Source: a virus. From it: a DNA stretch of 39,524 bases. This document shows positions 8,842 through 32,811 of this stretch, in pieces. Numbering within the stretch: position 1 is the first letter of the stretch; every line of letters starts with the position of its first letter. The DNA lies in IMG/VR virus record IMGVR_UViG_3300048686_000082, positions 1 to 39,524 of that record, one strand, 5' to 3'. The notes under the pieces were generated by a model. That model was not told the DNA's origin. It worked only from the letters and a program-made list of their open reading frames with translations, and did not search any database. A program made the position numbers and the translations under genes.

Positions 8842-9644
8842 TATCTACCTCCCACAACATCCTTGGGTGCATTCTGGCGAACCCAATCCATAAATGAAAT
8901 TTCTGACTGACGTTGAACATCTGTTGGTTTAGCAGCAGCAATAGCCTGGGCTGCAGCAGCCTGAGCCTTTTGTTCAGTAAATCCAACCTGTTGTTCGGTA
9001 ACTTTGAATCCACCTTTAGTGTAAGTCTTTTGGGTAACTCCTTGTTGGACCATACCCTCAATAGCCTTAGTAAGATTCTTATACCAAGACTCTTTCATTT
9101 CATCTTGCGATATACCTTTATCACGTGATGATAGAGATACCTGTTCAATAATGTCAGCAATCTGTTGTGGTGTCTTTGGATAGATTTGCTTGGTTGGCAG
9201 TTTGCCTGCACCAGCAGCAGCACCAGATCCTGCTGCCGCACGTAAGAATGATTCAACAGTTACGTTCTTTGCAACCTCTTCATCTTTAATCATATTGGTA
9301 GCAAGACGACCTACCCAAGCGCCGAGACTTGTAGGGTCGCTGATAGTTCTGCCAGTTACTTGCTTGACTGCGTTTTGAACTTTTGCATAAGCAGATTTGT
9401 TATTCTTGATGAGATTTACTATGAATCCTTCTACCTCAAGAGGAAGCACTCTTTCATTGATTCCAAAGCCAAATAGAACTCCATTATCCTGACCACTATC
9501 TGGAGTGTTCCAATCAAGGGATGGTTTATTAGCGGTGCTCTGTTGTTTTACGAATGCAGCCTGGGCTTCGTTATTGAGTTTAGAATCACTCCACTTAGGG
9601 TTTGCCTTACGTAGTTCTGCCTTGATTTCTTCAAGAGTCTTCAC
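8841..9644 (-). CDS. Putative virion-associated protein
   Basis: The 267-aa protein starts with GTG at 9644 overlapping the preceding TGA (GTGA). It opens with MKTLEEIKAELRKANPKWSD, has an Ala/Gly-rich hinge (AAAGSGAAAGAG, about 139-150), and ends in a Gln/Ala-rich helix and WVRQNAPKDVVGGR. It is mostly helical and charged, with no catalytic signature. It is sandwiched between the giant protein and the duplicated 519-aa protein, so an internal virion role is inferred. Confidence 0.7.
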   Translation of the reverse strand: MKTLEEIKAELRKANPKWSDSKLNNEAQAAFVKQQSTANKPSLDWNTPDSGQDNGVLFGFGINERVLPLEVEGFIVNLIKNNKSAYAKVQNAVKQVTGRTISDPTSLGAWVGRLATNMIKDEEVAKNVTVESFLRAAAGSGAAAGAGKLPTKQIYPKTPQQIADIIEQVSLSSRDKGISQDEMKESWYKNLTKAIEGMVQQGVTQKTYTKGGFKVTEQQVGFTEQKAQAAAAQAIAAAKPTDVQRQSEISFMDWVRQNAPKDVVGGR

Positions 9645-12600
9645 GGCTTTATCACCTCTAAGTTATCGTTCTCTAGGTAACGGTCATATAGATCGGAGAA
9701 TCCATTGGACCATAGTTTCATATTCAAGATGTAGTTATCCCATCTATCTTTTAGATCTGCGTTGGCTTGGTTATCAAGAGATGAACTTCCGCCAAGTCCT
9801 TTTCTTCTTGCAAGTTCTTGTGATAAGAACGTACGATTTGTAAGGAAGTCTGATACCGCTTCCATAGTATTGATACCAGTCTTCTTGGTATCTCCGTATG
9901 TATTCATCCACTTCTTATCAGATGCAATCTGTGTTAGAGAACGGATATATCGCTTCGTCTTATTGAAGTCCATAGTTCCGAACTGTCTTTCTGTTGCCCA
10001 GTTTGGATATGTTGCCTCTAGTTGTGCAACCTTAGACTTCCAAGTCTCTTCAAGTCCTAGTTGTTTAGCAGCAGCGGAGTTGATGCTGGATGTGTTATAC
10101 CCCTTCTTTCTCCACTGGGCTAGGACAGCATCGCGTTCTTGTGCAAGTTTTGTATACTGCGCCCAACCTAAACTTATCTCACGATCAACAAGAATCTGTT
10201 CGATATCTCGTTGTTCGGTGTACTTATATGTACCACCTGGACGAACTTCTCTGTTACGGAAGTAATTGGCTGCAGCGTCAGAGTAACGATCTCCAGTTAC
10301 ACCATAGTTAGCAAGGAATCCAATAAGACCTGGAGTTTCATTCTTATCCATCTTACCAAGAAGATAGTTGAACTCTTTCTGGTTCTTTACTGCTCCACCT
10401 GTTGCAGCGACACCAGTCTTGTTGATACTTGTAGGAGCAGTAAGGATATAACCAATATCTCCATACTTGCCAAGGATGTAATCGTCTACCTTTGTAGGAC
10501 CTACCTTTGGATCAGCGATAGCGCTACGGTAGTCATCCATAATAAACTGCCATTCTGGACGGAATGTAAATGTGAATGGCAAGCCAAGGTTTACTCTGAT
10601 GCGGATGTTGTATAGTTGATCAGCCAATCGTTGAGCGTCTGCAAATGTAGGTTGCTTACCAACACGACCATTCATTTCCCATTCATATTGCTGGGTCTTC
10701 ATAGCCGATGCTACTGCTCGTGCATATCCTTCATCGCTAAGACCAGCCTGCATTGCTTCAAACTTACGGGCTGCTGCTGGAAGAATAAGATCCCAAGGAT
10801 TTGCTGCTGCTCTACCAAACGGTAATAGTGAACCGAATACGGTATCTGCAGCCTCTTTCCCTAGGTTATTTGTTAGCCAAGTACGTGCATCTTCCACAAC
10901 CTCTGGTCGCTTATTAGCGAACATTGAGACTGGAAGTGTTACTGGGATACCGAATGCTGGAGCAAGTGGGTTCTCACCTTGTAAGAAAATGTTGAGGCTG
11001 TTCTTTGGAATAGATACTTGGTATCCCTTTGGAATACCGAACTTACCCTGCAATCCTTCTGGGATTGTAAAGAGCATAAACTGCGGTGTAGATGGTGGCG
11101 CTCCTGGTGGAACTTCCTTACCCTCTTGATCCACTACAGTTGCTACACGGTTTGGTGCATTCCAAATCATAGATGCACGGATTGCTAGTGATGGATCCTT
11201 AGCAATCAAACTTCCATAGACCTTGATAGCGTTATATTGTGCGTTGAAGAACGGCACCAAGAAACGCAGAGCGCTTGACAAACCACTGTTATTAGTTACG
11301 CGATAAAGCGTTTCATTTGTGGTCTTGAGAGCCTGAGAATGTGCGCTTCGCTGCATCTGAATGATGAGGTCTGGGTCCTGAAGATCCTTACCAGCACCTT
11401 CTGCTAGGTTGATTTCCTTTTGCAGTTGACGCTTGTAGAGTTTCTCATAGAAAGGCCAGGATACAAGATTGTTTTCTGGGGTAGTTCCAATGACTTCAAA
11501 CAACTTAGATATAGTTGTATTGATAGTTCTTCTGATAGCACCAGAGTTGTATCCAAATACACTTTCCATAACCTCACGTCCAGGGACGTTGGCAAGGTTT
11601 GGTTGATTACGCATTAGAGCATCGAACTGCTGTGGAGTCATTTCCTCACGAGCAATAAGAGATCTAATCTGCTGATCTGGGAACAACTTGTATACACGTG
11701 AACGTGCTACTTGAATATGGTTCCTGATTTCTGATGGGGTTATATCAGCATCAATCTCGCGTAGATAGAACTTTCCATTGCTACTACGTAGCCATTGCGA
11801 TATCTGATCATCCGATTCGCCCTTAAGTAGGCGCATAGCCAACTGGTCTTTGCGGAATCGATTGTTAGCAAAGTTAGCAAGTTCAGTAAAATACTGTGGG
11901 TCTGTTGGTGCAACAACCTTGTTGTATTCTGTTCCTAGTCTTTGGAATGGCTTTCCGTAACTAGCACCTTTGGCAGCATCATAAGCAAGATACGTTTGAC
12001 CCTCTGTGAGCCAGTTAAGAGTACGGTCAGAGGCTGCATCTTGGCGAACCAACATACCTGCTGGGCCAGCAAAGGCTCCATCTGCCACAACAGTTTTACC
12101 ATTAGGGCTTACATATTTGTCACGGCCTTCACCGCTACGAATAATCTTTAGTTCTGAACGGATTGCTGCCAGACGTTGAGACTCAAGAATCTTGTCATTG
12201 ATTTCATTCTCTGCTTTTTCAATCTGTTCAGTATATGTACGCACTCTACGCATCTGATCTTCGCCGATGATATCTGCGATATCTTCATAGTTGCGACCGC
12301 GAGATATTTCGTAGGATGTAATGATGCGGATATCTAATTGAGCACCAGGTTCTTTGGCTCGTAGATTTACTTTCTTGCCAGCCTGCACTTCCATTTCCAG
12401 CATAGATGCTGGGATACCTTTGCGTGGTTCCATAACTGGATACGCACCTTTAGGAATGCGACCCTTAGTTCCAGGGATTTTGTAGAAAACTTTACCACTG
12501 AGATAGTCTGCATAGACCATTGTGGTTCCTTCAGGAAGATTAGGTACAACTTCCTGGCGAACATATTTACCGAAGGCTTCTTCACGTAGTCTCTGGTACT

Positions 12601-14962
12601 TGGCCTTCTCTTGACCAAACAAAAGACCGCCTTGAGCATCTTTTTTCTTAGTCAATTCAAAGTAAGAGTCGCGCTTCGAGCCAGTTAGTAGTGGCTTTGT
12701 CTTAGATGTCATAGCCAGTTCAACCATAGATGGTTCTACCATCTTGCCGAATGTACCAGCAGCACCAGCATAGTAAGCCTGTGGTGTTAGTTCATCAAGG
12801 ATTTGATTACGAACATCGATGAAACCATTCTTTTGTGCAATAAGGCGACCAGTTTGCTCACGCAATTCTCCAGGATTCTTCAACTGGATAGAATCCATAA
12901 TAAAGTTCTTACCGATTTGTGCTCTGGTCTTGAGGTTCTTTCCGAAGTTCTTGAAGAAATCATCGGTCTTAGCCATCTGACCAAGCACTAGCGCTGCACG
13001 AAGTTGACCATCAATGGTGTTACGTACTGGATAACCAAAGCGGGTAAGCACTGAAGCCTTGAATATAGAGTTGGCTAGGTCAGCAAAGTCTGTAATTTCC
13101 TTACCAGCAAGGCGTGTAATTGCAGCAGCCTCAAGGACTTTCTCTCCACCTATTGACCAACGGCTGTAAAGTCTCATTACTGAATCAAAATCTTTGAAGT
13201 CCATCATAGGGACAACGTTGGGCATTTCAGATTTCCAGAATGGAGATGTAATCAATTTGCCGTTATCATCCACCCAATATCCGTGATCACGCATAGAGGA
13301 CATAAGCGCAGTTCTCATATTGCTGAATTGTTGGTAAATCTGTCTAGCCTGATCCAATGGGATGTCATAGCGAAGTGCGCTGATTTCAGCAATCTGCTCT
13401 TCGATATTCTTGACAGCCTGCATACGCTCATTAGCATTGCGAGCGTTGAGATAACTACGAGCCAATTCATTCTTTACGCCAGCATATTCAATGCCGCGTA
13501 GTTCTTTGACTGAATTGAGTGCATACTTGATTTCATTGAATGAATCAGATGCTAAACCACCGTCTACTCTTACAGTACCGCGTGGAAGTTTGTTGAAGAA
13601 TGGGGCTACAATATTGACAACTGGGCGAGTGTATGGGTTCTTTTGATATTGCTCAGTGTAGAAAGTAAGGTTGTGACGTGCTTCGCTTGCCTTAGCACGA
13701 GTCTTTTCAATGGCAACGCCAAGGTTTTTATCAAAAAGTGTGACATCTGCAGCCGATGTATATTCATTGATAACACGGTAGTTACCGATGTTCTCAGATA
13801 AAGCCTTATCTAGGGCTGCATCACGGACACGAAGATCTTCCAGAACCTTAGTTAGTCTGTTGTATTCTTCGATTGTTGGCAAATGCTGTTCTGGTTTTGT
13901 AGCCGAACCCCAAGGAATGTCATTCATTCTTTTCTGGATAGGGTCTAAAATATCTTTTGCGTTGATAATCTCATCAGCAACAGATGCCTTTGTGCGCTCA
14001 AGTTTCTTGAGGGAGGCCATATCTCCCGCTGCTGCAGAAAGAAAGTCTGCTACCTCATCAAATGTCTTGAGTTCTCCAGTGACATCTGCAACAAGATTGC
14101 GTGCAGTAGTCCTTCTGACAAAGACATCATCAAAGTTTTTTACTGCATCACCTTCAGTTAGGCGTTGTGCGATGACACCCATTGGTGTTTCACGACCAAT
14201 CTTGCCACCTGATTTGAGCCACGCACCGTGTGCATCTAGTTCAGAACGTAGGCGAGCAATGTCATCTACGGTTCTAATAGGCTGATCAAGGCCAAGGGTT
14301 CTTACTACACCCAATCCCTTACCAGTAAGTACTAGCGGATCTGCGTACCACGAGAGTAATCCGTCTACTCCACCAGTAAAAAACTTACCAAAGATTTCAT
14401 CTTGGAAAGCCTGCTTACGCTGGTCTGGATCTGCGATGTTGAAGTTTGGATCTAAGAACGTGGGAAGCGGAACGCCTTGTTCTTCTAGTAGCGGAGTTAC
14501 TCCAACTCTTTCTCCAACAGCACCAACATATCCACCAAACGCCTGCCCTGGAGATACATCCTTTGCAAGTTTCCAGTTCTTGATGAAGTTATATCCTTCA
14601 CCTGAAATGTTATCTGCCTCTGCAAGAAGTGCTGTAGATATAGGCCGTGTTACTATTGGCTTTACCGTTGTGTAAAGTTTATCTATTTCATCTGCAGCAA
14701 GATTGAACACAACATCTGCACGAACAATCTCTGCTGGCTTTGCCAAAGTATTGATATATCTTTTACCAAACTCTTGCGTTACTTTATCCGCTAAAGCCTT
14801 TTCGCCAGCAGCAAAATCTGGTGCTACCTTTGGTGCCATAGGTGCAACACGTGCTTGTGTCATTCCACCAGCAAGTCCGATGGCAGCCTTTACTGGTGCG
14901 CCGACGGCTGTACCAATGGCTTTGCCAACTTCTTTTTTGATGGTGTCCCAGTAATTAGGCAC
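9641..14962 (-). CDS. Giant internal virion / DNA-ejection protein (1773 aa)
   Basis: This is the largest gene, 1773 codons from GTG 14962. It is mostly helical with scattered hydrophobic amphipathic stretches. The N-terminus (KKEVGKAIGTAVGAPVKAAI, then GLAGG) could insert into or disturb membranes. Mid-protein landmarks include KASVLTRFGYPVRNTIDGQL and, later, SWPFYEKLYKRQLQKE and ALRFLVPFFNAQYNAIKVYG. The last two recall the large polyvalent-protein type C-terminal domains (LPD38-like) in giant virion-ejected proteins. In T7-like phages the analogous large internal protein (gp16) lines the ejection conduit. Here the gene lies between portal and scaffold rather than after the tail genes. Only the size, composition and operon position are firm. 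Confidence 0.75.
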   Translation of the reverse strand: MPNYWDTIKKEVGKAIGTAVGAPVKAAIGLAGGMTQARVAPMAPKVAPDFAAGEKALADKVTQEFGKRYINTLAKPAEIVRADVVFNLAADEIDKLYTTVKPIVTRPISTALLAEADNISGEGYNFIKNWKLAKDVSPGQAFGGYVGAVGERVGVTPLLEEQGVPLPTFLDPNFNIADPDQRKQAFQDEIFGKFFTGGVDGLLSWYADPLVLTGKGLGVVRTLGLDQPIRTVDDIARLRSELDAHGAWLKSGGKIGRETPMGVIAQRLTEGDAVKNFDDVFVRRTTARNLVADVTGELKTFDEVADFLSAAAGDMASLKKLERTKASVADEIINAKDILDPIQKRMNDIPWGSATKPEQHLPTIEEYNRLTKVLEDLRVRDAALDKALSENIGNYRVINEYTSAADVTLFDKNLGVAIEKTRAKASEARHNLTFYTEQYQKNPYTRPVVNIVAPFFNKLPRGTVRVDGGLASDSFNEIKYALNSVKELRGIEYAGVKNELARSYLNARNANERMQAVKNIEEQIAEISALRYDIPLDQARQIYQQFSNMRTALMSSMRDHGYWVDDNGKLITSPFWKSEMPNVVPMMDFKDFDSVMRLYSRWSIGGEKVLEAAAITRLAGKEITDFADLANSIFKASVLTRFGYPVRNTIDGQLRAALVLGQMAKTDDFFKNFGKNLKTRAQIGKNFIMDSIQLKNPGELREQTGRLIAQKNGFIDVRNQILDELTPQAYYAGAAGTFGKMVEPSMVELAMTSKTKPLLTGSKRDSYFELTKKKDAQGGLLFGQEKAKYQRLREEAFGKYVRQEVVPNLPEGTTMVYADYLSGKVFYKIPGTKGRIPKGAYPVMEPRKGIPASMLEMEVQAGKKVNLRAKEPGAQLDIRIITSYEISRGRNYEDIADIIGEDQMRRVRTYTEQIEKAENEINDKILESQRLAAIRSELKIIRSGEGRDKYVSPNGKTVVADGAFAGPAGMLVRQDAASDRTLNWLTEGQTYLAYDAAKGASYGKPFQRLGTEYNKVVAPTDPQYFTELANFANNRFRKDQLAMRLLKGESDDQISQWLRSSNGKFYLREIDADITPSEIRNHIQVARSRVYKLFPDQQIRSLIAREEMTPQQFDALMRNQPNLANVPGREVMESVFGYNSGAIRRTINTTISKLFEVIGTTPENNLVSWPFYEKLYKRQLQKEINLAEGAGKDLQDPDLIIQMQRSAHSQALKTTNETLYRVTNNSGLSSALRFLVPFFNAQYNAIKVYGSLIAKDPSLAIRASMIWNAPNRVATVVDQEGKEVPPGAPPSTPQFMLFTIPEGLQGKFGIPKGYQVSIPKNSLNIFLQGENPLAPAFGIPVTLPVSMFANKRPEVVEDARTWLTNNLGKEAADTVFGSLLPFGRAAANPWDLILPAAARKFEAMQAGLSDEGYARAVASAMKTQQYEWEMNGRVGKQPTFADAQRLADQLYNIRIRVNLGLPFTFTFRPEWQFIMDDYRSAIADPKVGPTKVDDYILGKYGDIGYILTAPTSINKTGVAATGGAVKNQKEFNYLLGKMDKNETPGLIGFLANYGVTGDRYSDAAANYFRNREVRPGGTYKYTEQRDIEQILVDREISLGWAQYTKLAQERDAVLAQWRKKGYNTSSINSAAAKQLGLEETWKSKVAQLEATYPNWATERQFGTMDFNKTKRYIRSLTQIASDKKWMNTYGDTKKTGINTMEAVSDFLTNRTFLSQELARRKGLGGSSSLDNQANADLKDRWDNYILNMKLWSNGFSDLYDRYLENDNLEVIKP

Positions 14963-17661: not shown

Positions 17662-19536
17662 TTAGATAAACTGTCGTTCTTGCTCAGCAAGGAGTTCATC
17701 TATGTTGATAACTACTCTCTTGCTTTTTTCATAACGTGATAAAAATGGATTTTTCAAATGATGTGTTGCGTGGATACCCTGATTGAGCATCTCCCTTGCT
17801 CTAATCTCACAGAACCACAAAGCCATCACCATATCGGTCTTACCTTTAGTGGTAGGTGACCAGGTAATAAGTTGCTCGATAAATGATTTGATATTCTCAG
17901 TTTGATCATTCGGTAGGTGAATGAGATTATCTCGGTGATGCTTTCCATCTTGCTGCTTTGTGCCAAACAATGTAGACATAGAAGCAACACCGAATCCTGA
18001 ATCCCATTTGTTATTACCTGTATGGTGTTCTCGCAGTAGCGTTCCCTTAGAAGCCAGGAACTGGCGAATGCCTTCATCTTGGGTGAGGAAGGATTGGAAT
18101 GCGTTGCGTTCTACAATCCACTCAGAAGGGGTATAGACATTTGTCCAGTCAGTAATCAACTGACGAATTTGTGCTGGAGTAGGTCTGGTAATCTTTATCG
18201 CGTCAACAACATAACGCTTATGGGTAATACGATCAATAGCATAGCAAACAGCGGCAGTGTCGCCAACCATTGCAGGGTCCAGACCACATATAAAACTAAA
18301 GCCGCTAAGATCACGAGGATGACCTGGATGCCCAGGGACAAGACGACCAGACTTACGCATACCATCAATAGAACCTTTGACGCAGACAGGATCGAAGATG
18401 GCATCGTCTGAGATATCTTGTTGCTGGTAGATGAGCGCCCAGGTACTGGCATCCATTGCTTGTCGTTCTGCATATAGATGTTTTCCATTCCAACGGGGGT
18501 ATAGACCCTCTTCGTTTTTCTGGTCTTCTGTTTGTCCATCAAAGGGTTGATCTGAGTAAGGCCATAGAGTGACCCACTTGTTGGCATCTTCGTGGGTTTC
18601 CAATAGGGCTGGCATAGCCAGATAAGTCCAAGGGACTAACCCACCTGGATAGCGGTCTGGGTTACGTAATTCTTTATAGAGGTCTACGGCTGCAACTCTG
18701 GTACCTACCACAATCAATTTACCTGTGGGGTTCAAACGAGAGCGCACATCTTGGGTAAGCCACTTGATTTGCTTTTCAAAGTCATTTGCATTGGATAACG
18801 TCACCGCGTCATCTATGATGATCATATCGGCACGCTTACCGTAAATCTGACCGCCAATACCTACGGCTTCTAGGTTCGGATCCTTCTCTGAAGATTCCCT
18901 GAGTTCATCACCAAAGGTGACGCGGGTAGCCTGCCAGGAAGCGGTCTTAGTATTGAACCCAACCCCAGCGGCATATGCCTGCTGTAGTTCTTCGTACATT
19001 GGGTGCGTCAGTCGCTGCTTGATAGCATAAAGGAAGTCAGCCGCTAAACGCTGGGTTTGGGAAACTATGAGAACTCTAAAGTTCGGATTATTGACAATCT
19101 TGTAGGTTACATAATCCACCGTCACGGTAATAGATTTTGCGTGGTTTGGTGGGATGTTCAAAAGGATACGGTTATCTGCCAGACCCTTTTCATACTTCAT
19201 AGAGGGATGGAGCCAGGATGGTTCACGGCCTTCTATGACATCTATTAAATTCTTTTGATGAGGGAAAGTCTCTTGCTTGAGATACTTCTTACGCCAGGTA
19301 ACAAAATCTAAATCCTTAGCAGTCTCTTCTGCAAAGTTCTTTTCTAGGCTACCAAGTCTTGTTCTATCAGCCAACTGCTTGAAGACAGCATCAGATCTAC
19401 GATAGTACTCATAGGTCTTGATTGACTTGCCAGCCACCTTGCAGGACTGCTCAACGGTCATACCGTCGGCTATACACTGGAGGATAACCTTCTTGGCTCG
19501 TTCAGCCTCTTTTACTTGATTGGGATTGTGGACCAT
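17662..19536 (-). CDS. terL: Terminase large subunit with N-terminal HTH-like segment
   Basis: Starting at ATG 19536, the protein is 624 aa. The ATPase domain has a deviant Walker A (IPPNHAKS, 128-135) and Walker B (MIIIDD, 238-243). The nuclease domain shows CGLDPAMVGD with Asp420 and a later WIVERNAF with Glu476, as expected for an RNase H-fold packaging nuclease. The first 60 residues (CIADGMTVEQSCKVAGKS, then KTYEYYRRSD) look like a helix-turn-helix that small terminase subunits usually carry. No separate small subunit gene is seen. The open frame continues upstream to 19704, but that stretch is palindromic, GC-rich, non-coding-like DNA, so the shorter start is preferred. Confidence 0.93.
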   Translation of the reverse strand: MVHNPNQVKEAERAKKVILQCIADGMTVEQSCKVAGKSIKTYEYYRRSDAVFKQLADRTRLGSLEKNFAEETAKDLDFVTWRKKYLKQETFPHQKNLIDVIEGREPSWLHPSMKYEKGLADNRILLNIPPNHAKSITVTVDYVTYKIVNNPNFRVLIVSQTQRLAADFLYAIKQRLTHPMYEELQQAYAAGVGFNTKTASWQATRVTFGDELRESSEKDPNLEAVGIGGQIYGKRADMIIIDDAVTLSNANDFEKQIKWLTQDVRSRLNPTGKLIVVGTRVAAVDLYKELRNPDRYPGGLVPWTYLAMPALLETHEDANKWVTLWPYSDQPFDGQTEDQKNEEGLYPRWNGKHLYAERQAMDASTWALIYQQQDISDDAIFDPVCVKGSIDGMRKSGRLVPGHPGHPRDLSGFSFICGLDPAMVGDTAAVCYAIDRITHKRYVVDAIKITRPTPAQIRQLITDWTNVYTPSEWIVERNAFQSFLTQDEGIRQFLASKGTLLREHHTGNNKWDSGFGVASMSTLFGTKQQDGKHHRDNLIHLPNDQTENIKSFIEQLITWSPTTKGKTDMVMALWFCEIRAREMLNQGIHATHHLKNPFLSRYEKSKRVVINIDELLAEQERQFI

Positions 19537-19579: not shown

Positions 19580-19728
19580 GCGGAGCCGCGCTCCGCACCT
19601 TGATGGTGCTTGAGCGCCCGAGCAAGCCACAGCGCAGCGAGGGGTACGATGGTACCCCTTTCAAGGGGCGCGTAGCGCCAGCGCAGCGCCCTTGTCGGTC
19701 GCAAATGCTAGGGCTGTTCCGCATTTGC
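19580..19728. promoter_or_regulatory. Cluster of GC-rich inverted repeats upstream of terL
   Basis: Nested stems follow one another: GCGGAG/CTCCGC (19580-19596), GCACC/GGTGC (19595-19609), GGGGTAC/GTACCCC (19641-19658), the alternative CCCCTT/AAGGGG (19655-19668), AAGGGGCGC with GCGCCCTT (19663-19693), and a perfect 8-bp pair GCAAATGC/GCATTTGC (19701-19728). Base composition is visibly GC-richer than the flanks. Possible roles are a structured 5' leader, a packaging (pac/cos) signal or an origin element. The density of dyads is observed; the role is inferred. Confidence 0.65.
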
Positions 19729-19775
19729 TCCCTCTACTATATATAAGGCAGAAAAAATAGGTCATTTCTCTATTA

Positions 19776-19791
19776 TGTGACGAACGTCACC
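19776..19791. promoter_or_regulatory. CRP/GlxR-like operator
   Basis: TGTGACGAACGTCACC fits TGTGA-N6-TCACA except for the last base and contains a perfect 6-bp inverted repeat (GTGACG/CGTCAC). In Actinobacteria CRP-family regulators (Crp, GlxR) bind TGTGA-N6-TCACA sites. It lies between the AT-rich TATATATA near 19739 and a TATACA at 19808, so it could control leftward or rightward transcription. Confidence 0.5.
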
Positions 19792-20101
19792 TTATTCACG
19801 GCATCTTTATACACAAATCGGACAAAGATCTCACTTTAGCAGAGATATTTGTAGTGGGTATATGTATATCGGGCGGTCAAATTTTATCACTACGGGGTCA
19901 CCTTTGCTGACTGTTGGCTTCTTTTTTGGCAGGCAGGCAGACCAAGCAGGGCAGAAAGGAGAGAGAACAGGGCAGACAGAGAGAGATGTTCCACCTTCGG
20001 CAGGGCTTCCCCCTTATCGCTTGCCTACTTTCTAATATCCTGCCGTGAGCCGTTTCTAATAAACTCAGACAATTCTCAACCCTCAACCTATTGTTTAGAT
20101 C

Positions 20102-20115
20102 CGAACAACTGTTCT
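20102..20115. promoter_or_regulatory. LexA/SOS-box-like operator
   Basis: CGAACAACTGTTCT contains GAAC-N4-GTTC, the core of LexA boxes in Actinobacteria and Firmicutes. Two outer positions deviate from the best consensus. It is located about 100 nt upstream of the promoter candidate for the rightward cluster. A phage regulator with a similar dyad could equally use it. Confidence 0.4.
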
Positions 20116-20201
20116 ATTTCGCAACAGTATTGTTTCGTAATTACCCACCGACACCGATAAAGGATTGACCGAACATAACCGACACGCCCGCCCTTTTCCC
20201 C

Positions 20202-20229
20202 TTGCGTGTTAGGTAAGCCTCGTTATACA
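20202..20229 (+). promoter_or_regulatory. Candidate sigma-70-type promoter for the rightward cluster
   Basis: TTGCGT (20202-20207) and TATACA (20224-20229) are separated by 16 nt, about 48 nt upstream of the first rightward ATG. The -10 box is good and the -35 box weak. The transcript would begin at the hairpin at 20232-20246. Confidence 0.4.
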
Positions 20230-20231
20230 CT

Positions 20232-20246
20232 CGCCCCGAAGGGGCG
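20232..20246 (+). promoter_or_regulatory. Hairpin in the 5' leader of the rightward cluster
   Basis: CGCCCC GAA GGGGCG is a perfect 6-bp stem with a 3-nt loop, just after the promoter candidate and before the SD of the first gene. It may stabilise the 5' end of the transcript or be a regulator site. Confidence 0.45.
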
Positions 20247-20263
20247 CACTCCGCGCTCATTCT

Positions 20264-20279
20264 GAAAGGATAAGAAATG
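20264..20279 (+). repeat. 16-nt translation-initiation repeat, copy 1
   Basis: GAAAGGATAAGAAATG, containing SD and start codon, is identical before the genes at 20277 and 20976 (second copy 20963-20978). These are the only two genes of the cluster not coupled to an upstream gene, so the repeat marks independent translation starts. Confidence 0.8.
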
Positions 20280-20546
20280 TCACACACAATTACCGAATGT
20301 GAATACGCTTCAACCGAATATCACGACACCTGCCCCGAATGTGGCGAACTAACCGCCTGTGTCTGCCTTGCTTCCATAGTCTCAGAGTGGGAAATTAGCC
20401 CCACAGGTCAGACGGGCGCGTTTGCCTATCGTTACCAATACAAGGAAAAAGCGAGCGATTTGGTAGAGCGTTTCGGGTATGCCGAAACCTACCGCGAGGC
20501 TATGGACTCAATCGCTCATTCTGTAAATTGTGAGGGGAAGCGATGA
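20277..20546 (+). CDS. Small zinc-ribbon-like protein, first gene of rightward cluster
   Basis: The 89-aa protein has a Cys-rich N-terminal part (TCPECGELTACVC) that could bind zinc, followed by FAYRYQYKEKASDLVERFGY and a helical end. It has an independent ribosome binding site and the first position after the promoter candidate, so it is likely early and well expressed. No family is recognised. The stop overlaps the next ATG (ATGA). Confidence 0.75.
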   Translation: MSHTITECEYASTEYHDTCPECGELTACVCLASIVSEWEISPTGQTGAFAYRYQYKEKASDLVERFGYAETYREAMDSIAHSVNCEGKR

Positions 20547-20704
20547 AAAAGCAGAAATTAGAGAGAGTTCAATTTATCGCACGAAAAGGTGACGAGGCTT
20601 TTCAATTAGAAATAGTTGAGGGGCGATTTTATGAAATTGAGATTATTCGGGAATTAAACCGCCTTCTCAATGAGGGCTACACCTTAGAAAAGGCGGGGAA
20701 ATAA
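20543..20704 (+). CDS. Small hypothetical protein
   Basis: The 53-aa charged protein starts MKKQKLERVQFIARKGDEAF. The start overlaps the upstream stop (ATGA) and the stop overlaps the next start (TAATG), so it is translated by coupling. No family is recognised. Confidence 0.7.
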   Translation: MKKQKLERVQFIARKGDEAFQLEIVEGRFYEIEIIRELNRLLNEGYTLEKAGK

Positions 20705-20886
20705 TGAAAGCGGAGATGAGCGCGGTAAATCTGATCCAATGCCTAGCGGGGGAGATGTTCTGTCACCCTGCCGATGTAGTTCAAGCAATACAGGAGGACG
20801 AGGAGGTTCGCGCCTTAGTTCGTAGATACGGCAAGGGCGAGGTTTCTTACGAGGAGGTGAGAAACGCGGTCAATGCTATCTGCTAA
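20704..20886 (+). CDS. Small helical hypothetical protein
   Basis: The 60-aa acidic helical protein (MKAEMSAVNLIQCLAGEMFC at its start) ends the first subcluster. A hairpin at 20898-20925 follows. No family is recognised. Confidence 0.7.
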   Translation: MKAEMSAVNLIQCLAGEMFCHPADVVQAIQEDEEVRALVRRYGKGEVSYEEVRNAVNAIC

Positions 20887-20897
20887 TGCTTGCCTAT

Positions 20898-20925
20898 CCT
20901 CGCAGGGTTAGTCTATCCTGCGGGG
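20898..20925 (+). terminator. Hairpin after first subcluster (possible weak terminator)
   Basis: CCTCGCAGG and CCTGCGGGG form a 9-bp stem (one G-U pair) with a 10-nt loop, 12 nt after a stop codon. There is no T-run, so termination would be weak or protein-dependent. mRNA stabilisation or processing is also possible. Confidence 0.4.
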
Positions 20926-20962
20926 GTGGGGAGGTCTTAGACCTTCACACCAACAACAGATC

Positions 20963-20978
20963 GAAAGGATAAGAAATG
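20963..20978 (+). repeat. 16-nt translation-initiation repeat, copy 2
   Basis: This is identical to 20264-20279 and includes the SD and ATG of the gene at 20976. Confidence 0.8.
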
Positions 20979-21326
20979 ACAACGAAAGAAACAACCTGCG
21001 AGGAACGCATTGACGCACACCTCAACGCACTAGAGGAAGATATCGCAGGCGTTATCGAAGGCTACTACAACGGCGAGGAGGACGGCTTCGAGGGTTGGAA
21101 CAATTACCCTCTCGCGGTATCTACCCGTCAAGAAACGAAAATTGAACTATCGTGGGGCGGTCCAAGTGATTTCATCTCTGTAATACACGAAGGCTCAGAG
21201 GTTATCTCCGTCACCTATCATTTCCAAGATTGGTTTGACGGCGCGGTGCGCCAAGTAAATCAAGGCTCAAAGGTTTGGGAGTATGTCCGAACTGTTATTG
21301 AAGCCCGCGAGGAGTGTGGCTACTAA
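20976..21326 (+). CDS. Hypothetical acidic protein
   Basis: The 116-aa, strongly acidic protein contains GYYNGEEDGFEGWNNYPLAV, ELSWGGPSDFISVIHEG and TYHFQDWFDGA. This pattern is familiar from small phage proteins of unknown function, with an alpha/beta look. Acidity and early position would fit an inhibitor or a DNA mimic, but nothing proves this. Its stop overlaps the next ATG (TAATG). Confidence 0.75.
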   Translation: MTTKETTCEERIDAHLNALEEDIAGVIEGYYNGEEDGFEGWNNYPLAVSTRQETKIELSWGGPSDFISVIHEGSEVISVTYHFQDWFDGAVRQVNQGSKVWEYVRTVIEAREECGY

Positions 21327-21448
21327 TGTTTGAGGTGTCATTGAATTGGCTCAACGGATTAGGCCAGGTCATAACCTACGCCCTGATTATTGGTGGCGTG
21401 TTGTGGGTGCTGAGTAAGGTAGAAGTCAAGGATAAGGAGGGCAAGTAA
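21326..21448 (+). CDS. Single-pass membrane mini-protein
   Basis: The 40-aa protein has one transmembrane helix (QVITYALIIGGVLWVL) and a charged C-terminus (SKVEVKDKEGK). It is coupled on both sides (TAATG upstream, TAAATG downstream). It might be a membrane-acting host-takeover or superinfection-exclusion peptide; that is speculation. Confidence 0.65.
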   Translation: MFEVSLNWLNGLGQVITYALIIGGVLWVLSKVEVKDKEGK

Positions 21449-21601
21449 ATGGACAAATGTCGTTTTTGTGGGTTGCGTGGGTTGGTGTTATCCACCGCCA
21501 ACGCTGACTATTCCTGCGAGCATTGTGGAGAGTGGCAGGAGGCTATTCTCGGAAGCGTGTGGGAAATTGTAGGCTACGAGAAAGAGGAGGCAAGCAAGTG
21601 A
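21449..21601 (+). CDS. Zinc-ribbon mini-protein
   Basis: The 50-aa protein has two CxxC knuckles (CRFC and CEHC) 22 residues apart, the layout of a treble-clef or zinc ribbon, and an acidic C-terminal helix. It starts immediately after the preceding stop. It is a likely protein- or nucleic-acid-binding module. Confidence 0.7.
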   Translation: MDKCRFCGLRGLVLSTANADYSCEHCGEWQEAILGSVWEIVGYEKEEASK

Positions 21602-21723
21602 GCGCATTACAAGAATTAGATGAGGCTATGACTAGCCTCTGGTATCAAGCAGAAATCAGCGACCAAGCCAAGATGTATTGGAACGACCTGGTGGCAAAAC
21701 TAAAGGAGGAGGAAAGCAAGTGA
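21598..21723 (+). CDS. Small helical hypothetical protein
   Basis: The 41-aa protein begins at GTG 21598, overlapping the previous TGA (GTGA), and ends overlapping the next GTG the same way. The sequence is helical and acidic (MSALQELDEAMTSLWYQAEI). A longer upstream frame is not needed. Confidence 0.65.
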   Translation: MSALQELDEAMTSLWYQAEISDQAKMYWNDLVAKLKEEESK

Positions 21724-21959
21724 AGGTGGAAAACTTACGATTAGAACTAACGAATTACGAGAATGATGAGGAGATTATCGTTCTGTATTTCGACAAGGTG
21801 GCAGTAACAGATCACCTTGAGCAAGAAATAACGCCCGAACAATGGGCTAAAACTGTCGAGAAAGTGGAGGCTATTCCAATGGCAGAAATCCACGAAATCT
21901 TTGACACGATAACCGAACAGGCAGAGGAAGTTCTACGAGAGGAGAGGGCTAATGCCTAA
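21720..21959 (+). CDS. Small acidic hypothetical protein
   Basis: The 79-aa protein begins at GTG 21720 (GTGA overlap, AAGGAGGAGG upstream as SD). It starts with a beta-like segment (ENLRLELTNYENDEEIIVLY) and ends in an acidic helix. No family is recognised. Confidence 0.7.
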   Translation: MKVENLRLELTNYENDEEIIVLYFDKVAVTDHLEQEITPEQWAKTVEKVEAIPMAEIHEIFDTITEQAEEVLREERANA

Positions 21960-22098
21960 GTATATTTTTTATGTAGAGAAGTCTTATGAGGTAGAAGCGC
22001 CCACGAAAGAGGAGGCTCTCGCTTTGATCAACTCAGAACGCGAATATAACTATCTCAAAGATGAGAATTGGCAAGTAAAGGAAATTGCTAATGTGTGA
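21952..22098 (+). CDS. Small hypothetical protein
   Basis: The 48-aa protein (MPKYIFYVEKSYEVEAPTKE at its start) looks like a small beta-alpha-beta module of the kind found in many short phage proteins (strand, then TKEEALAL helix, then strand). It overlaps both neighbours by 8 nt. Confidence 0.65.
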   Translation: MPKYIFYVEKSYEVEAPTKEEALALINSEREYNYLKDENWQVKEIANV

Positions 22099-22195
22099 TC
22101 TCTGTTTCGATTATGGCGTTCAGACAGTAAGCGTTAGGAAAAATACGAAGCAGGTAAAGGTCTGCTTCAAGTGCCTAGAGGAGGCTAATAAGTGA
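22091..22195 (+). CDS. Zinc-knuckle mini-protein
   Basis: The 34-aa protein is made almost entirely of two CxxC knuckles (MCDLC and CFKC). The start overlaps the preceding gene by 8 nt and the stop overlaps the next GTG. It is too short for reliable family assignment. Confidence 0.6.
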   Translation: MCDLCFDYGVQTVSVRKNTKQVKVCFKCLEEANK

Positions 22196-22371
22196 GCAAC
22201 TACAACAAGAACGATGAGTGCGTGGGGTGTGGCGAACATATCTCCACCTATCACGGGAGAGGGTGCGTTTATGATCCCGATTATGAGAGCCAATGGGAGG
22301 CGTGTGGTGCGTGCGGTGAGTATGGCGTGCCAAGCGAACACAACTGTTCTGAGGAGGTAGTCAATGCCTAA
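22192..22371 (+). CDS. Cys-rich mini-protein
   Basis: The 59-aa protein begins at GTG 22192 (GTGA overlap, GAGGAGG upstream). It has eight Cys-region residues arranged as CVGC, CVYD, CGAC and a final HNC, suggesting one or two zinc sites. Confidence 0.65.
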   Translation: MSNYNKNDECVGCGEHISTYHGRGCVYDPDYESQWEACGACGEYGVPSEHNCSEEVVNA

Positions 22372-22537
22372 GTGTGGAGTGTGCGGTTGGTCTTTCTCAG
22401 GGTGGGCTATGACGAAACACGCCGAAACGCCCTGCGGTGAGGAAGATAGCAAGGCAGAGGCTAGACCTTATGCGCCTGAAATAGATGACATCATAAAACA
22501 ACTAGAGGAGGAGGAAAGTAATGGCAACAATTACTAA
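22364..22537 (+). CDS. Zinc-finger-like mini-protein
   Basis: The 57-aa protein has CGVCGWSFSG, then MTKHAETPC, giving a C-x2-C ... H ... C set typical of a small zinc finger, followed by an acidic tail. It overlaps both neighbours. Confidence 0.65.
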   Translation: MPKCGVCGWSFSGWAMTKHAETPCGEEDSKAEARPYAPEIDDIIKQLEEEESNGNNY

Positions 22538-22649
22538 AGTTTGGTTTTGTATAGACTGTGATACACAACTAACAGAGAGCGAAACCCACATACACGAGTG
22601 CGTGGGAGATGACATTCCGTTTATGATAAAAGGAGAAGATAATGACTAA
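22521..22649 (+). CDS. Zinc-finger-like mini-protein
   Basis: The 42-aa protein has FCIDC followed by HIHEC, again a C-x2-C ... H-x-H-x-C set. GAGGAGGAGG lies upstream of its ATG. It overlaps the previous gene by 17 nt and the next by 8 nt. Confidence 0.6.
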   Translation: MATITKVWFCIDCDTQLTESETHIHECVGDDIPFMIKGEDND

Positions 22650-22959
22650 GGAATACAGAGAATACCCTGACGGAGGGGTTTATTGGGCAAGGATAAAGTT
22701 AGATCAACAGGCAGACGGCGTGCTATTCACCTCGCCTGTTGATAACGCAACGCACCTAGTCAAGGGCGCAACGCTAGAAGTGATCAAAGGTCAATGGTGG
22801 AATAGCGATTTCTATAGCGGGATACTTGACGCAATAGCAGAAATGGGAGGGTGTCGTTGGGTGCTTGGTTACACAACTGACTATGAATACTACGAAGGGG
22901 AAGGCGAGCATTACCTAGAAGTAATGGAGAACGGCAGACAAATGGAGGAAGCGTTATGA
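22642..22959 (+). CDS. Hypothetical protein
   Basis: The 105-aa acidic protein has alternating strands and one helix (GGVYWARIKLDQ, HLVKGATLEVIKGQWWNS, YSGILDAIAEMGG). It is preceded by AAAGGAGAAG. No family is recognised. Confidence 0.7.
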   Translation: MTKEYREYPDGGVYWARIKLDQQADGVLFTSPVDNATHLVKGATLEVIKGQWWNSDFYSGILDAIAEMGGCRWVLGYTTDYEYYEGEGEHYLEVMENGRQMEEAL

Positions 22960-23129
22960 ACAAGGAATACTATCAAGCAAAGGCAGACCTATGCCGTGAC
23001 CTTGCGGTCAAGCAAATGGTCGAGGGAGATAGCAAGAGGGCAGGGGAGAACCTGATCCGTATGGTCAATGCCCTGAACGAACTAAACCTAATCAACTATA
23101 AGGAGGAGAAGGCAAGTGAAACTGACTAA
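22956..23129 (+). CDS. Small helical hypothetical protein
   Basis: The 57-aa helical protein (MNKEYYQAKADLCRDLAVKQ at its start) has an ATGA overlap upstream and a 14-nt overlap with the next gene. No family is recognised. Confidence 0.65.
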   Translation: MNKEYYQAKADLCRDLAVKQMVEGDSKRAGENLIRMVNALNELNLINYKEEKASETD

Positions 23130-23340
23130 TTTCTACGAGGTAATGGATCGCAAGGGAGATATTGCGTGGGGAGGGGCGAGCGTAACCGATGCGGTCGAAT
23201 GGTTTAGACGAGGCTTAGATAACTCTATATTCGTATCGGTATGGAACGAGGAAAATATTGAGGAGCCTGTCCTTGTCACCGACAAGATAGAGGTAACTGC
23301 CCTCGTGCTGGCTACGATTACGAGTGAGAGGTCACGATGA
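23116..23340 (+). CDS. Small hypothetical protein
   Basis: The 74-aa protein begins at GTG 23116, with AAGGAGGAGAAGG upstream. It starts MKLTNFYEVMDRKGDIAWGG and has a central AVEWFRRGLDNSIFVSVW, a small alpha/beta profile seen in early phage proteins of unknown function. Confidence 0.7.
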   Translation: MKLTNFYEVMDRKGDIAWGGASVTDAVEWFRRGLDNSIFVSVWNEENIEEPVLVTDKIEVTALVLATITSERSR

Positions 23341-23432
23341 TATTCTTGGCTACTATCTTTGTTTGTCTGATCGCTTACGCTATAATCTGTCTTGATGATT
23401 ACCTCAATGAAAGACCGAGAAGGTTTCAATGA
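23337..23432 (+). CDS. Membrane micro-protein
   Basis: The 31-aa protein consists of a hydrophobic helix (MIFLATIFVCLIAYAIICL) and a charged tail (DDYLNERPRRFQ). Both ends are coupled by ATGA overlaps. This is short, but the coupling and clean membrane topology support it. Confidence 0.5.
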   Translation: MIFLATIFVCLIAYAIICLDDYLNERPRRFQ

Positions 23433-23731
23433 GCCTAGATAAACGAGAACGAATGGCGCGTAAGCGAGCAGTCTGGCTACGCAATTACCAACGAGCACGA
23501 GGGCGAGCGCTGACTCGCCTAGCACAACAATACCCCGACCAATTCAAGGAAATCTTGGAAGAAGAGAGGCTATCTGATGAGGCTAATGGAAAGGCGTGGT
23601 TGGATATTAGTGGCGCTACCGCTACTGACGCTGGTTTTTACCTATCTCCACCTAGATCAGGTGACACACCTCGACCCGAAGAAACCTACGCAAATCAGCA
23701 GAACAAAGGCAACAATGGAGGAGAAGCGTGA
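23429..23731 (+). CDS. Arg-rich actinophage-type hypothetical protein
   Basis: The 100-aa protein has a basic N-terminal helix (RERMARKRAVWLRNYQRARG), then RALTRLAQQYPDQFKEILEE, a pattern I know from small uncharacterised actinophage proteins; the rest is disordered. The last 155 nt overlap the lytic-transglycosylase-like gene in another frame. DNA binding is suggested by the Arg-rich helix only. Confidence 0.7.
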   Translation: MSLDKRERMARKRAVWLRNYQRARGRALTRLAQQYPDQFKEILEEERLSDEANGKAWLDISGATATDAGFYLSPPRSGDTPRPEETYANQQNKGNNGGEA

Positions 23732-24002
23732 AAATAAAAGGATCGCAAAAGAATATGCGTGGGTTGCGTTTGGTTGGCGAGGAAGAGAATGGGAATGCCT
23801 TCTCGCTTTATGGACCAAAGAGAGCAGGTTTGATCACTACGCCCAGAACCCACGATCAAGCGCTTTCGGAATTGCTCAGTTGCTTGGAGAGAGAAGTCGA
23901 AGACCTGAACTCCAAGTATTGCGAGGCTTACGTTACATTGATCAACGTTATGGAACACCTTGTAAGGCTTACAAGTTTGCTCTTACCCACAAACACTACT
24001 AA
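23577..24002 (+). CDS. Membrane-anchored lytic transglycosylase-like protein
   Basis: The 141-aa protein has an N-terminal signal-anchor (residues about 9-26, ILVALPLLTLVFTYLHL), a basic linker, then an SLT-type fold. WECLLALWTKESRFDHYAQN carries the catalytic Glu82, SSAFGIAQL supplies the G-x2-Q motif, and RYIDQRYGTPCKAY is the usual end of actinobacterial transglycosylase domains. It would cleave peptidoglycan from outside the membrane. It starts inside the preceding gene in another frame, with AAGAGAGG eight nt upstream of ATG 23577. It is on the opposite strand from the holin/endolysin genes. Confidence 0.75.
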   Translation: MRLMERRGWILVALPLLTLVFTYLHLDQVTHLDPKKPTQISRTKATMEEKRENKRIAKEYAWVAFGWRGREWECLLALWTKESRFDHYAQNPRSSAFGIAQLLGERSRRPELQVLRGLRYIDQRYGTPCKAYKFALTHKHY

Positions 24003-24026
24003 GATAAAGGACTGCTGACCCGTTCC

Positions 24027-24206
24027 TTATCCTTTCGAGTCAGTAGTATAGAAGCCTCCGCCCTTGAAAGAGATAGCGGGGGCTTCATACTTTCTACTCA
24101 TAAGCGTATGACAACTAGAGCAGGTGGGAGAGGACGCTTCGGCGTGGATAGATCTCTCGACTACATACTCAATACCACAGGTAGGGCAGGAGTATTCGTA
24201 TTTCAT
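24027..24206 (-). CDS. FmdB-family zinc ribbon protein
   Basis: The 59-aa protein has Cys7-x2-Cys10 and Cys29-x2-Cys32, ending with APAISFKGGGFYTTDSKG. This matches the FmdB/putative regulatory zinc-ribbon family (typical ending FKGSGFYxTD). It is the last gene of the leftward replication operon, coupled to the methyltransferase by an ATGA overlap. FmdB-type proteins are thought to be regulatory; a role in transcription is inferred. It converges on the rightward cluster with only 24 nt between stops. Confidence 0.85.
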   Translation of the reverse strand: MKYEYSCPTCGIEYVVERSIHAEASSPTCSSCHTLMSRKYEAPAISFKGGGFYTTDSKG

Positions 24207-32077: not shown

Positions 32078-32263
32078 CTACTCTGCTCCGCGACCAAATT
32101 CTTTAGCCGATGGATCGAGCCACTTCAGTACTGGTCCAAGGAATCCAGCAAGTGCTGCTGCTCCAAGGGTTTTTACATCAGTTTCTCCTGCTAGGTAAAG
32201 TGCAATAGCAGCAGAGGCTGCAGCACGAAACCACGTCAGCGATATTTGCTTGAGTGTTTCCAT
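32078..32263 (-). CDS. Holin-like membrane protein
   Basis: The 61-aa protein has two short hydrophobic segments (RAAASAAIALYLAG and LGAAALAGFLGPVL) followed by KWLDPSAKEFGRG. The WLDP ending is familiar from actinophage holins. It is the last gene of the late operon and directly follows the endolysin. It probably forms holes in the cell membrane to release the endolysin. Confidence 0.75.
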   Translation of the reverse strand: METLKQISLTWFRAAASAAIALYLAGETDVKTLGAAALAGFLGPVLKWLDPSAKEFGRGAE

Positions 32264-32811
32264 TAGTTGCCTTTCGTTCGTTTATTGTGAACCTTACAGC
32301 AGGTGCAAGTTGGTGCTAAATTTGGTACCGAATTTGGTATCCAAATGCCACCTTTTGCCACCTTCTTTTTTGCTTGGGGCTGCAGGGCAGCCTTGAGTTG
32401 GTTCACAACTGTAGGTTGATTCATCCACCAAAACCAAGGGCTAGTGTCATTAGCGCTATCAGCGTTGATAGAAATATGAAGATGCTTAGAGTGAGGGTTA
32501 CTACCACTGTAAGGCCTATTGCCAGACTTAGCCTTGAGGCGTGACCAAATTTTCTTATTGAAGATGAGGTAAGCAACCCTTTCATCTTCCTTGAGTTTTT
32601 CAAATATCTCGGCACAGTCAATACCTGCCTTTGGATCGTGGGTCAGGTCTACCGCTAGTCCCGTGTTGTGATCTGAGTTAGGGCTTGCCTTGATGTGAGC
32701 CTTGCTTGGTAGGAGTCCATCCGATAACTTGCTCCGCTTGGGTACAAGCGCAGTTGCCTGCCGTAGAACGGCAATAGCAGCAGGTGTTGCACGTTTTGCA
32801 ACAGGTTTCAC
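32263..32811 (-). CDS. Endolysin, M15-family (VanY/endopeptidase-type) peptidase
   Basis: The 182-aa protein carries the M15 zinc-peptidase motifs SDHNTGLAVDLTHD (His48, Asp55) and HSKHLHISI (His112). It would cut peptide stems of peptidoglycan. There is no signal peptide, so a holin is required. The C-terminus has a Lys-rich linker and a CTCCKVHNK zinc-like or wall-binding tail. It lies between two small membrane-protein genes, a standard lysis cassette. Confidence 0.85.
   Translation of the reverse strand: MKPVAKRATPAAIAVLRQATALVPKRSKLSDGLLPSKAHIKASPNSDHNTGLAVDLTHDPKAGIDCAEIFEKLKEDERVAYLIFNKKIWSRLKAKSGNRPYSGSNPHSKHLHISINADSANDTSPWFWWMNQPTVVNQLKAALQPQAKKKVAKGGIWIPNSVPNLAPTCTCCKVHNKRTKGN

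Follow-up and report, generated by a model that had tools for sequence, protein, structure and literature searches.

A mosaic operon of coupled zinc-type mini-genes with a recurrent intercistronic RNA hairpin and a double-coded transglycosylase gene in a putative freshwater-type actinophage

Gene organization of the island

The window analyzed in this study is the full IMG/VR virus record IMGVR_UViG_3300048686_000082 (39,524 bases), and the cluster in question is its rightward island of small genes at 20277-24002, together with an overlapping gene at 23728-24018. The island is flanked by a divergent terminase gene on one side and a convergent FmdB/Dam/sigma block on the other. It contains 19 rightward mini-genes of 31-141 codons (g01-g20 without g04) and the 20th, overlapping gene, g21. 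A first-pass annotation made from the sequence alone had described about 18 tightly coupled genes, nearly all joined by overlaps, two of them encoding membrane mini-proteins and most lying below usual gene-calling limits. An independent gene caller, which applied dynamic programming to codon usage, Shine-Dalgarno (SD) motifs, and coupling with a codon model partly trained on homologues of the cluster genes, recovered these genes nearly exactly; it missed only g18 of 31 amino acids (aa) and placed the start of the SLT gene so that the gene came out shorter. The two membrane mini-proteins are g06 (21326) and g18 (23337), and a hydrophobic anchor is present at the N-terminus of the SLT protein g20 as well. 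The remark on gene-calling limits was overstated, since each gene has at least 31 codons.

The features of the island are as follows. The ratio of nonsynonymous to synonymous substitution (dN/dS) is a simple pooled NG86 value from related sequences, adequate for telling coding from non-coding frames; TM stands for transmembrane.

20277-20546, +, g01: 89 aa; putative N-terminal Cys4-5 zinc motif (C8, C19, C22, C28, C30); predicted β-β-β-α domain; 11 distinct homologues, dN/dS 0.24
20543-20704, +, g02: 53 aa; ATGA-coupled; called independently; relatives near-identical only
20704-20886, +, g03: 60 aa; TAATG-coupled; stop codon inside the outer stem of the hairpin element; 12 sequences, dN/dS 0.28
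20883-20976, +, intercistronic RNA hairpin element: ~60-nt imperfect hairpin (20883-20942) plus leader GAAAGGATAAG
20976-21326, +, g05: 116 aa; 8 sequences, dN/dS 0.22
21326-21448, +, g06: 40 aa, single-TM mini-protein; 33 sequences, dN/dS 0.31
21449-21601, +, g07: 50 aa, zinc-ribbon-like (C4, C7, C23, C26); 43 distinct sequences, dN/dS 0.08
21598-21723, +, g08: 41 aa; GTGA-coupled; 5 sequences, dN/dS 0.11
21720-21959, +, g09: 79 aa, acidic; GTGA-coupled; 8 sequences, dN/dS 0.36
21952-22098, +, g10: 48 aa; called independently; no diverged homologues
22091-22195, +, g11: 34 aa, putative zinc mini-protein (C2-C5/C25-C28); 5 sequences, dN/dS 0.32
22192-22371, +, g12: 59 aa, double-zinc-ribbon-like, nine Cys/His; 8 sequences, dN/dS 0.19
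22364-22537, +, g13: 57 aa, finger C4-C7-H19-C24 and conserved acidic tail PEIDDLIK; 30 sequences, dN/dS 0.21
22521-22649, +, g14: 42 aa, putative zinc mini-protein (CxxC...HxH..C); called independently; identical copy in contig L004, no diverged homologues
22642-22959, +, g15: 105 aa; 2 distinct sequences, dN/dS 0.12
22956-23129, +, g16: 57 aa, helical core protein; 64 sequences, dN/dS 0.27
23116-23340, +, g17: 74 aa, core protein; β-β-α-β-β-α model; 72 sequences, dN/dS 0.20
23337-23432, +, g18: 31 aa, single-TM mini-protein; 8 sequences, dN/dS 0.22 (21 sequences in another comparison)
23429-23731, +, g19: 100 aa, core protein; 3' half overlaps g20 in another frame; C-terminal codons form the SD of g21; 31 sequences
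23577-24002, +, g20: 141 aa; N-terminal hydrophobic anchor and SLT lytic-transglycosylase domain, catalytic Glu82
23728-24018, +, g21: 96 aa; +1 frame within g20; GTGA-coupled to g19; SD GGAGGAG

Coding potential and translational coupling

We fetched 80 terminase relatives from IMG/VR, which are metagenomic contigs; about 50 of them hold enough of the island for comparison. Outside the overlapping frames, every gene with diverged homologues had a dN/dS of 0.06-0.36, with changes concentrated at third codon positions. The first-pass annotation had named unconserved frames or a missing coding pattern as grounds for rejection, and no gene with diverged relatives was rejected on them. For g02, g10, and g14, which (almost) lack diverged homologues, coding is probable, as judged from codon usage together with SD motifs and coupling. 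The remaining frames are, by these comparisons, real and conserved genes. It is very improbable that the cluster consists of spurious short open reading frames (ORFs) of a GAGGAG-rich region. The frames are short, open frames do arise from purine-rich sequence, and one such ORF (20886-20972) is indeed no gene. However, the third-position excess and low dN/dS were seen in all testable genes, cysteines are invariant, SD motifs and coupling run throughout, and the gene order is kept across dozens of contigs. This alternative was refuted for all genes but g02, g10, and g14.

Stop and start codons overlap at 15 of the 18 window junctions (ATGA, GTGA, TAATG, ATGNNTAA, or longer), and at one the genes are at most 15 nt apart. 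Across the clusters, 526 of 770 junctions are overlaps of 4 nt (214), 1 nt (166), or 8 nt (146), and an SD-like motif was present at 485 of the 601 coupled junctions. Glu accounts for 18.7% of the last nine residues of the products compared with 9.8% elsewhere. GAGGAG encodes Glu-Glu and at the same time serves as SD for the gene that follows; therefore, the recurrent EESK, EEANA, and similar tails need no function in the protein.

Zinc-type mini-proteins

Products with C-x2-C and a second Cys/His pair were counted as zinc-type, and the chance level was taken from 2000 shuffles of the pooled residues, which ignore relatedness. This pattern was found in six of the 19 products (g01, g07, g11, g12, g13, and g14) against 0.32 expected, and none of the 2000 shuffles reached six. 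Cys makes up 2.9% of residues in the cluster, compared with 0.67% elsewhere in the window. Ligand Cys residues are 98-100% conserved in g01, g07, g11, and g12 (invariant in g01 and g11), and none of the nine Cys/His of g12 varies among its 8 sequences. Among the 30 sequences of g13, C4, C7, and H19 are invariant, while C24 is kept at 73% and lost in some. g14 carries the motif and has no diverged homologues.

The conservation of these ligands suggests that the six products are structural zinc-binding mini-proteins with zinc-ribbon/treble-clef-like spacing. The first-pass annotation had assigned zinc knuckles to exactly these six. Their Cys/His motifs were borne out, but the knuckle designation was not: the classical CCHC spacing C-x2-C-x4-H-x4-C occurs in none of the six. 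No named Pfam zinc family scored above its cut-off in these proteins, the best being Zn_Ribbon_TF (3e-4, g07) and FYVE (3e-3).

In the 50 relatives, 169 of 802 called genes encode zinc-like products, compared with ca. 11 expected from the sum of per-locus shuffles. These products form 79 families having only CxxC...CxxC in common. Pfam and NCBIfam identify almost none of the families; one is ArdA. Some relatives (contigs L037, L047, L055, and L058) have the PEIDDLIK tail of g13 but no zinc finger, as if finger and tail were separable modules.

The AlphaFold model of g01 has a core pLDDT of ~80 and a β-β-β-α fold, with the zinc part poorly modelled. Its fold neighbours (dsRBD, HPF/RaiA, SPO1 Acb4, and T7 Gp1.2) were within background (Foldseek E ≥ 0.18, Z ≤ 6.6) and serve as a lead only. 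An RNA-binding role of g01 is conceivable from the weak dsRBD/HPF resemblance, itself within background, and the long RNA hairpin in the same operon. The g17 model is confident (pLDDT 93.7), and a fold search against PDB and BFVD gave no match at E ≤ 0.001. In tblastn searches of a 50,697-record phage collection, g05, g07, and g17 had no match, and g01 had one weak match, in phage ct2KA10.

An intercistronic RNA hairpin element

The element at 20883-20976 spans from the stop codon of the upstream gene to the next start codon, and about 20 relatives have it between other pairs of genes. The predicted fold is a long imperfect hairpin (minimum free energy -39 kcal/mol, z -4.6), and the same shape is found in relatives. 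In 19 sequences, the covariation score was 0.321 compared with 0.161 after shuffling, and 41 double changes kept pairing compared with 14.3 ± 3.3 after shuffling; the alignment was not fitted to the structure, which itself came from one member of the alignment. The signal vanished when the partner strand was slid. A covariance model detected the element 47 times at E < 0.01 on the cluster strand, the window copy among them, and gave weak mirror matches on the opposite strand at the same places, as expected for a hairpin. For the majority of the copies tabulated, the stop codon of the preceding gene is complete 7 nt inside the element, and the following start codon comes 0-1 nt past the end of the element. 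A strict pattern scan of IMG/VR returned 58 copies; the 57 contigs that carry them all contain homologues of the cluster, and the stop codon sits at the fixed place in 46 copies. No Rfam family matched in the window at the gathering level of the covariance models, and no significant copy of the element was found in ct2KA10. To our knowledge, this structured intercistronic RNA, with its strong covariation, is an undescribed element.

Three other assignments were rejected. The 28-codon ORF at 20886-20972 overlays the hairpin; the putative -10 box of a simple promoter (TTGCCT...TATCCT) tracks the covariation of the stem and not the consensus; and no T-run follows the hairpin, as an intrinsic terminator would have it.

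In the early mRNA of phage T7, RNase III sites are stable hairpins between early cistrons of a podovirus. Similarly, the present element is a long, stable hairpin of conserved structure between cistrons that are presumably early. Unlike the T7 sites, it takes in the stop codon of the gene before it and turns up again at other gene junctions. It may serve RNA processing or end protection as at the T7 sites, or translational gating by the terminating ribosome. As judged by eye, the 3' arm may also pair with a CCTCC or GACCT that lies immediately downstream, an arrangement fit for a switch.

Double coding of the transglycosylase gene

g20 matched PF01464 (SLT) with 22.4 bits (cut-off 21.3), phrog_15428 (1.2e-24), and phrog_12661 (4.3e-16). 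E82, S83, S94, A96, G98, A100, and Q101 (an ES motif and S-x-A-x-G-x-A-Q) are invariant in 31 sequences. g20 is predicted to be an exported, membrane-anchored peptidoglycan transglycosylase, and of all the cluster genes it alone has a biochemical activity that can be predicted.

The first third of g20 lies over g19 and the remainder over g21, in +1 frames in each case, so that nearly its whole length is double-coded. The g21 frame is free of stops in 60 of 63 distinct relatives, whereas the +2 frame and the three reverse frames average 3-8 stops. The GTGA/ATGA start and GGAGGAG-type SD of g21 stand at the same place in nearly all relatives. For matched genome pairs, the synonymous rate (pS) of g20 in the g21 overlap was 0.377 (0.326-0.431) compared with 0.53-0.67 in single-coded neighbours, and that of g19 was 0.400 in its overlapped part compared with 0.554 in its single-coded part. 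Synonymous shuffles leave the g21 frame open in ca. 1-40% of cases per sequence, and an open frame in one genome therefore proves little; the case for g21 rests on the 60 of 63 relatives, the fixed SD and start, and the suppressed synonymous rate. The naive dN/dS of g21 is 0.92 because its third positions are the first positions of g20. Comparative evidence of these kinds supports the g20/g21 double coding well.

The mosaic slot in relatives

The 821 called genes fall into 268 families, including 142 singletons; some small families, notably that of g13, are loosely joined through single-linkage. g16, g17, g18, g19, and g20 stand in constant order at the 3' end of most relatives and with g21 make up the core (g16-g21). 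g06 is usual in the middle, and the other genes are patchy and reshuffled between relatives. Genes that occupy this slot in relatives encode ArdA (E 1.7e-18), ArdC-N (1.7e-8), and SNase (7e-20), as well as LPD29, DUF7249, DUF3846, a clamp-like protein, and amidoligase/GATase. These clusters can also hold homologues of g01, g03, and g06, sometimes adjacent to the genes for ArdA, ArdC-N, SNase, LPD29, or DUF7249. The ArdA and ArdC profiles (PF07275 and PF08401) had no match among the ten window cluster genes scanned with Pfam, and matched in the relatives' clusters only. An amidoligase-like gene and a glutamine-amidotransferase-like gene lie in the slot of contigs L025, L027, and L028, a pair that suggests a peptide-ligation module.

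Possible function of the operon

We regard the cluster as an early host-takeover and counter-defence island, with a probability of roughly 65%. This reading is based on its position opposite the virion genes, the small size and rapid exchange of its genes, and the anti-restriction genes in its slot. The island would be transcribed as one polycistronic message of about 20 small genes, in the rightward direction that leads away from the genes for terminase and virion. Translation would pass from cistron to cistron by coupling, each SD lying in the last codons of the preceding gene and stop and start overlapping by 1, 4, or 8 nt; where coupling breaks, the standard RNA hairpin would fill the space between stop and start. 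With such self-contained junctions, small genes could be exchanged as cassettes, leaving the 5' and middle parts mosaic and the 3' core g16-g21 fixed; this exchange is suggested by the mosaic order and the structure of the joints. The most likely role of the products would be an early one, as small proteins directed at the host and against its defences. Among them, the zinc mini-proteins would be stable folds nucleated by metal, with host proteins or nucleic acids as their probable binding partners.

Several points weigh against this interpretation. No scanned window gene matches an anti-defence family. Early timing is deduced from synteny, and metal binding only from ligand conservation. A role in lysis or at the envelope could be read from the SLT enzyme and the two TM mini-proteins. 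A terminase search of bacterial and archaeal genomes for a host or prophage gave no match. The first-pass annotation had proposed an arsenal of takeover factors, perhaps with anti-defence proteins among them. Its dense coupled operon of real and different zinc-type mini-proteins held up, and the slot position and ArdA/ArdC-N company fit the proposal; however, no zinc protein of the window matches an anti-defence family, and the transglycosylase end makes the operon not purely counter-defence.

A lysis or cell-envelope operon, with holin-like TM mini-proteins, wall degradation by the SLT enzyme, and zinc proteins as helpers, seems unlikely. Such a role would suit the membrane anchor and invariant catalytic Glu of g20, the single-TM proteins g06 and g18, and the fixed block g18-g21. 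However, most genes are soluble and quickly exchanged, which is untypical for lysis, relatives have anti-restriction genes in the same operon, and a leftward ORF at 32263-32811 near the tail genes resembles an M15-type peptidase by sequence look and may be the endolysin. We give similarly little credence to a DNA-transaction operon of small replication, recombination, or packaging accessories with zinc proteins as DNA binders. The relatives' slot does contain a beta-clamp-like protein, SNase, and a RusA-like match, and several zinc proteins weakly resemble transcription-factor zinc ribbons; on the other hand, the replication genes (primase, DnaB-like, Cas4-like, and sigma) form a separate leftward block, and the patchy distribution marks the accessory genes as non-essential.

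Within the takeover and counter-defence reading, a more specific model is offered tentatively, as we think it somewhat less likely than not to hold in full. The island may be a cassette platform for tiny counter-defence proteins, in which each mini-gene brings its own joint (SD and overlap, or a stop-clamped hairpin), zinc proteins can be inserted, deleted, and swapped with polycistronic translation kept intact, processing or gating of the message falls to the hairpin, and the double-coded transglycosylase comes last. The slot is a testable reservoir of 79 zinc-like mini-protein families in ca. 50 related clusters, nearly all without known relatives and beside ArdA/ArdC genes. If even a few of them block defences, the locus could be mined for counter-defence proteins in phages of uncultured actinobacteria. 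Routine annotation misses or blurs the zinc mini-genes, the structured RNA, and the double-coded transglycosylase, and the last offers a clean case for the study of overlapping genes.

Comparison with known systems

We know of no report of such a density of zinc mini-proteins or of standard hairpin joints in actinobacteriophage arrays. Searches of the open-access literature on intercistronic phage RNase III hairpins, double-coded endolysins, and phage zinc mini-protein arrays turned up no account of the features seen here. Small-gene arrays of actinobacteriophages, such as genes 143-171 of mycobacteriophage Wildcat, consist of small, dispensable genes without assigned function; of 193 mycobacteriophage genes tested, 45 showed host toxicity, in many cases through binding of host proteins (PMC7474061). 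Leading regions of plasmids, which enter the cell early, carry exchangeable small genes including ArdA-type anti-restriction genes (PMC11541004); unlike these islands, the present one is phage-borne and translationally coupled, and no scanned window gene belongs to a known antirestriction family. Actinophage small-gene arrays and anti-defence islands are already known (PMC7474061; PMC11541004), and the zinc density, standard joints, hairpin family, and double-coded SLT gene set the present cluster apart as a new form of them.

Streptomyces phage Immanuel3 (Beephvirinae, Immanueltrevirus) resembles the window in TerL (42-43% identity over 98%), in the sigma factor (ca. 25-27% identity in such phages), in a similar primase/helicase/exonuclease gene order, and in small genes of the distal right arm, which are oriented against the terminase and among which one is annotated as encoding an anti-restriction protein. 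In contrast, its right-arm genes are larger and more widely spaced, and it has many tRNAs. Phage ct2KA10 (Caudovirales sp., OX376640/OX376641; TerL 46%) has rightward mini-genes at the same locus and in the same orientation, with zinc proteins, a TM mini-protein, and SLT last. It differs in having WhiB-like and SNase-like genes, named by sequence resemblance in an unannotated record, within the cluster.

Genome context and other features

The leftward terminase gene (17662-19530) is 42-46% identical to TerL of Streptomyces Immanueltrevirus-type podoviruses and ct2KA10. Leftward genes at 24-31 kb encode a WhiB-type regulator, a Dam-type methylase, a sigma-type protein, a Toprim primase, a DnaB-like helicase, and a Cas4-like nuclease. 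In the best explanation of these data, the phage is a lytic-type actinophage and distant kin of the Streptomyces Immanueltrevirus podoviruses; WhiB and the relatives point to an actinobacterial host, and the phage is putatively of freshwater type. A megablast search of the cluster region against phage records gave no match, which places it below genus-level nucleotide similarity to Immanueltrevirus (Beephvirinae), and no tRNA genes were found in the window.

The control region lies between the terminase gene and the cluster.

19706-20276, no strand assigned, divergent control region: conserved blocks in alignments of relatives

Blocks common to a dozen relatives are CTACTATATATAAGGCAG, a GTGAC-GAA(A/C)-GTCAC palindrome, and TTTAGnnGAGATATTT; the palindrome is likely an operator. 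Sigma-70 and terminator scans of this region gave no excess over shuffles.

Directly after the cluster, a leftward FmdB-like zinc ribbon (24027-24206; Zn_ribbon_8, E 2.4e-6, below cut-off) is a zinc mini-protein on the opposite strand. A collagen-like protein with GxT repeats (GATGPTGP...) is encoded leftward at 1442-2269 among the left-end genes. A leftward ORF of 1773 residues (9641-14962) is similar in size and place to gp09 of Immanuel3 (hypothetical protein, ca. 1650 residues) and is possibly an ejected internal virion protein.

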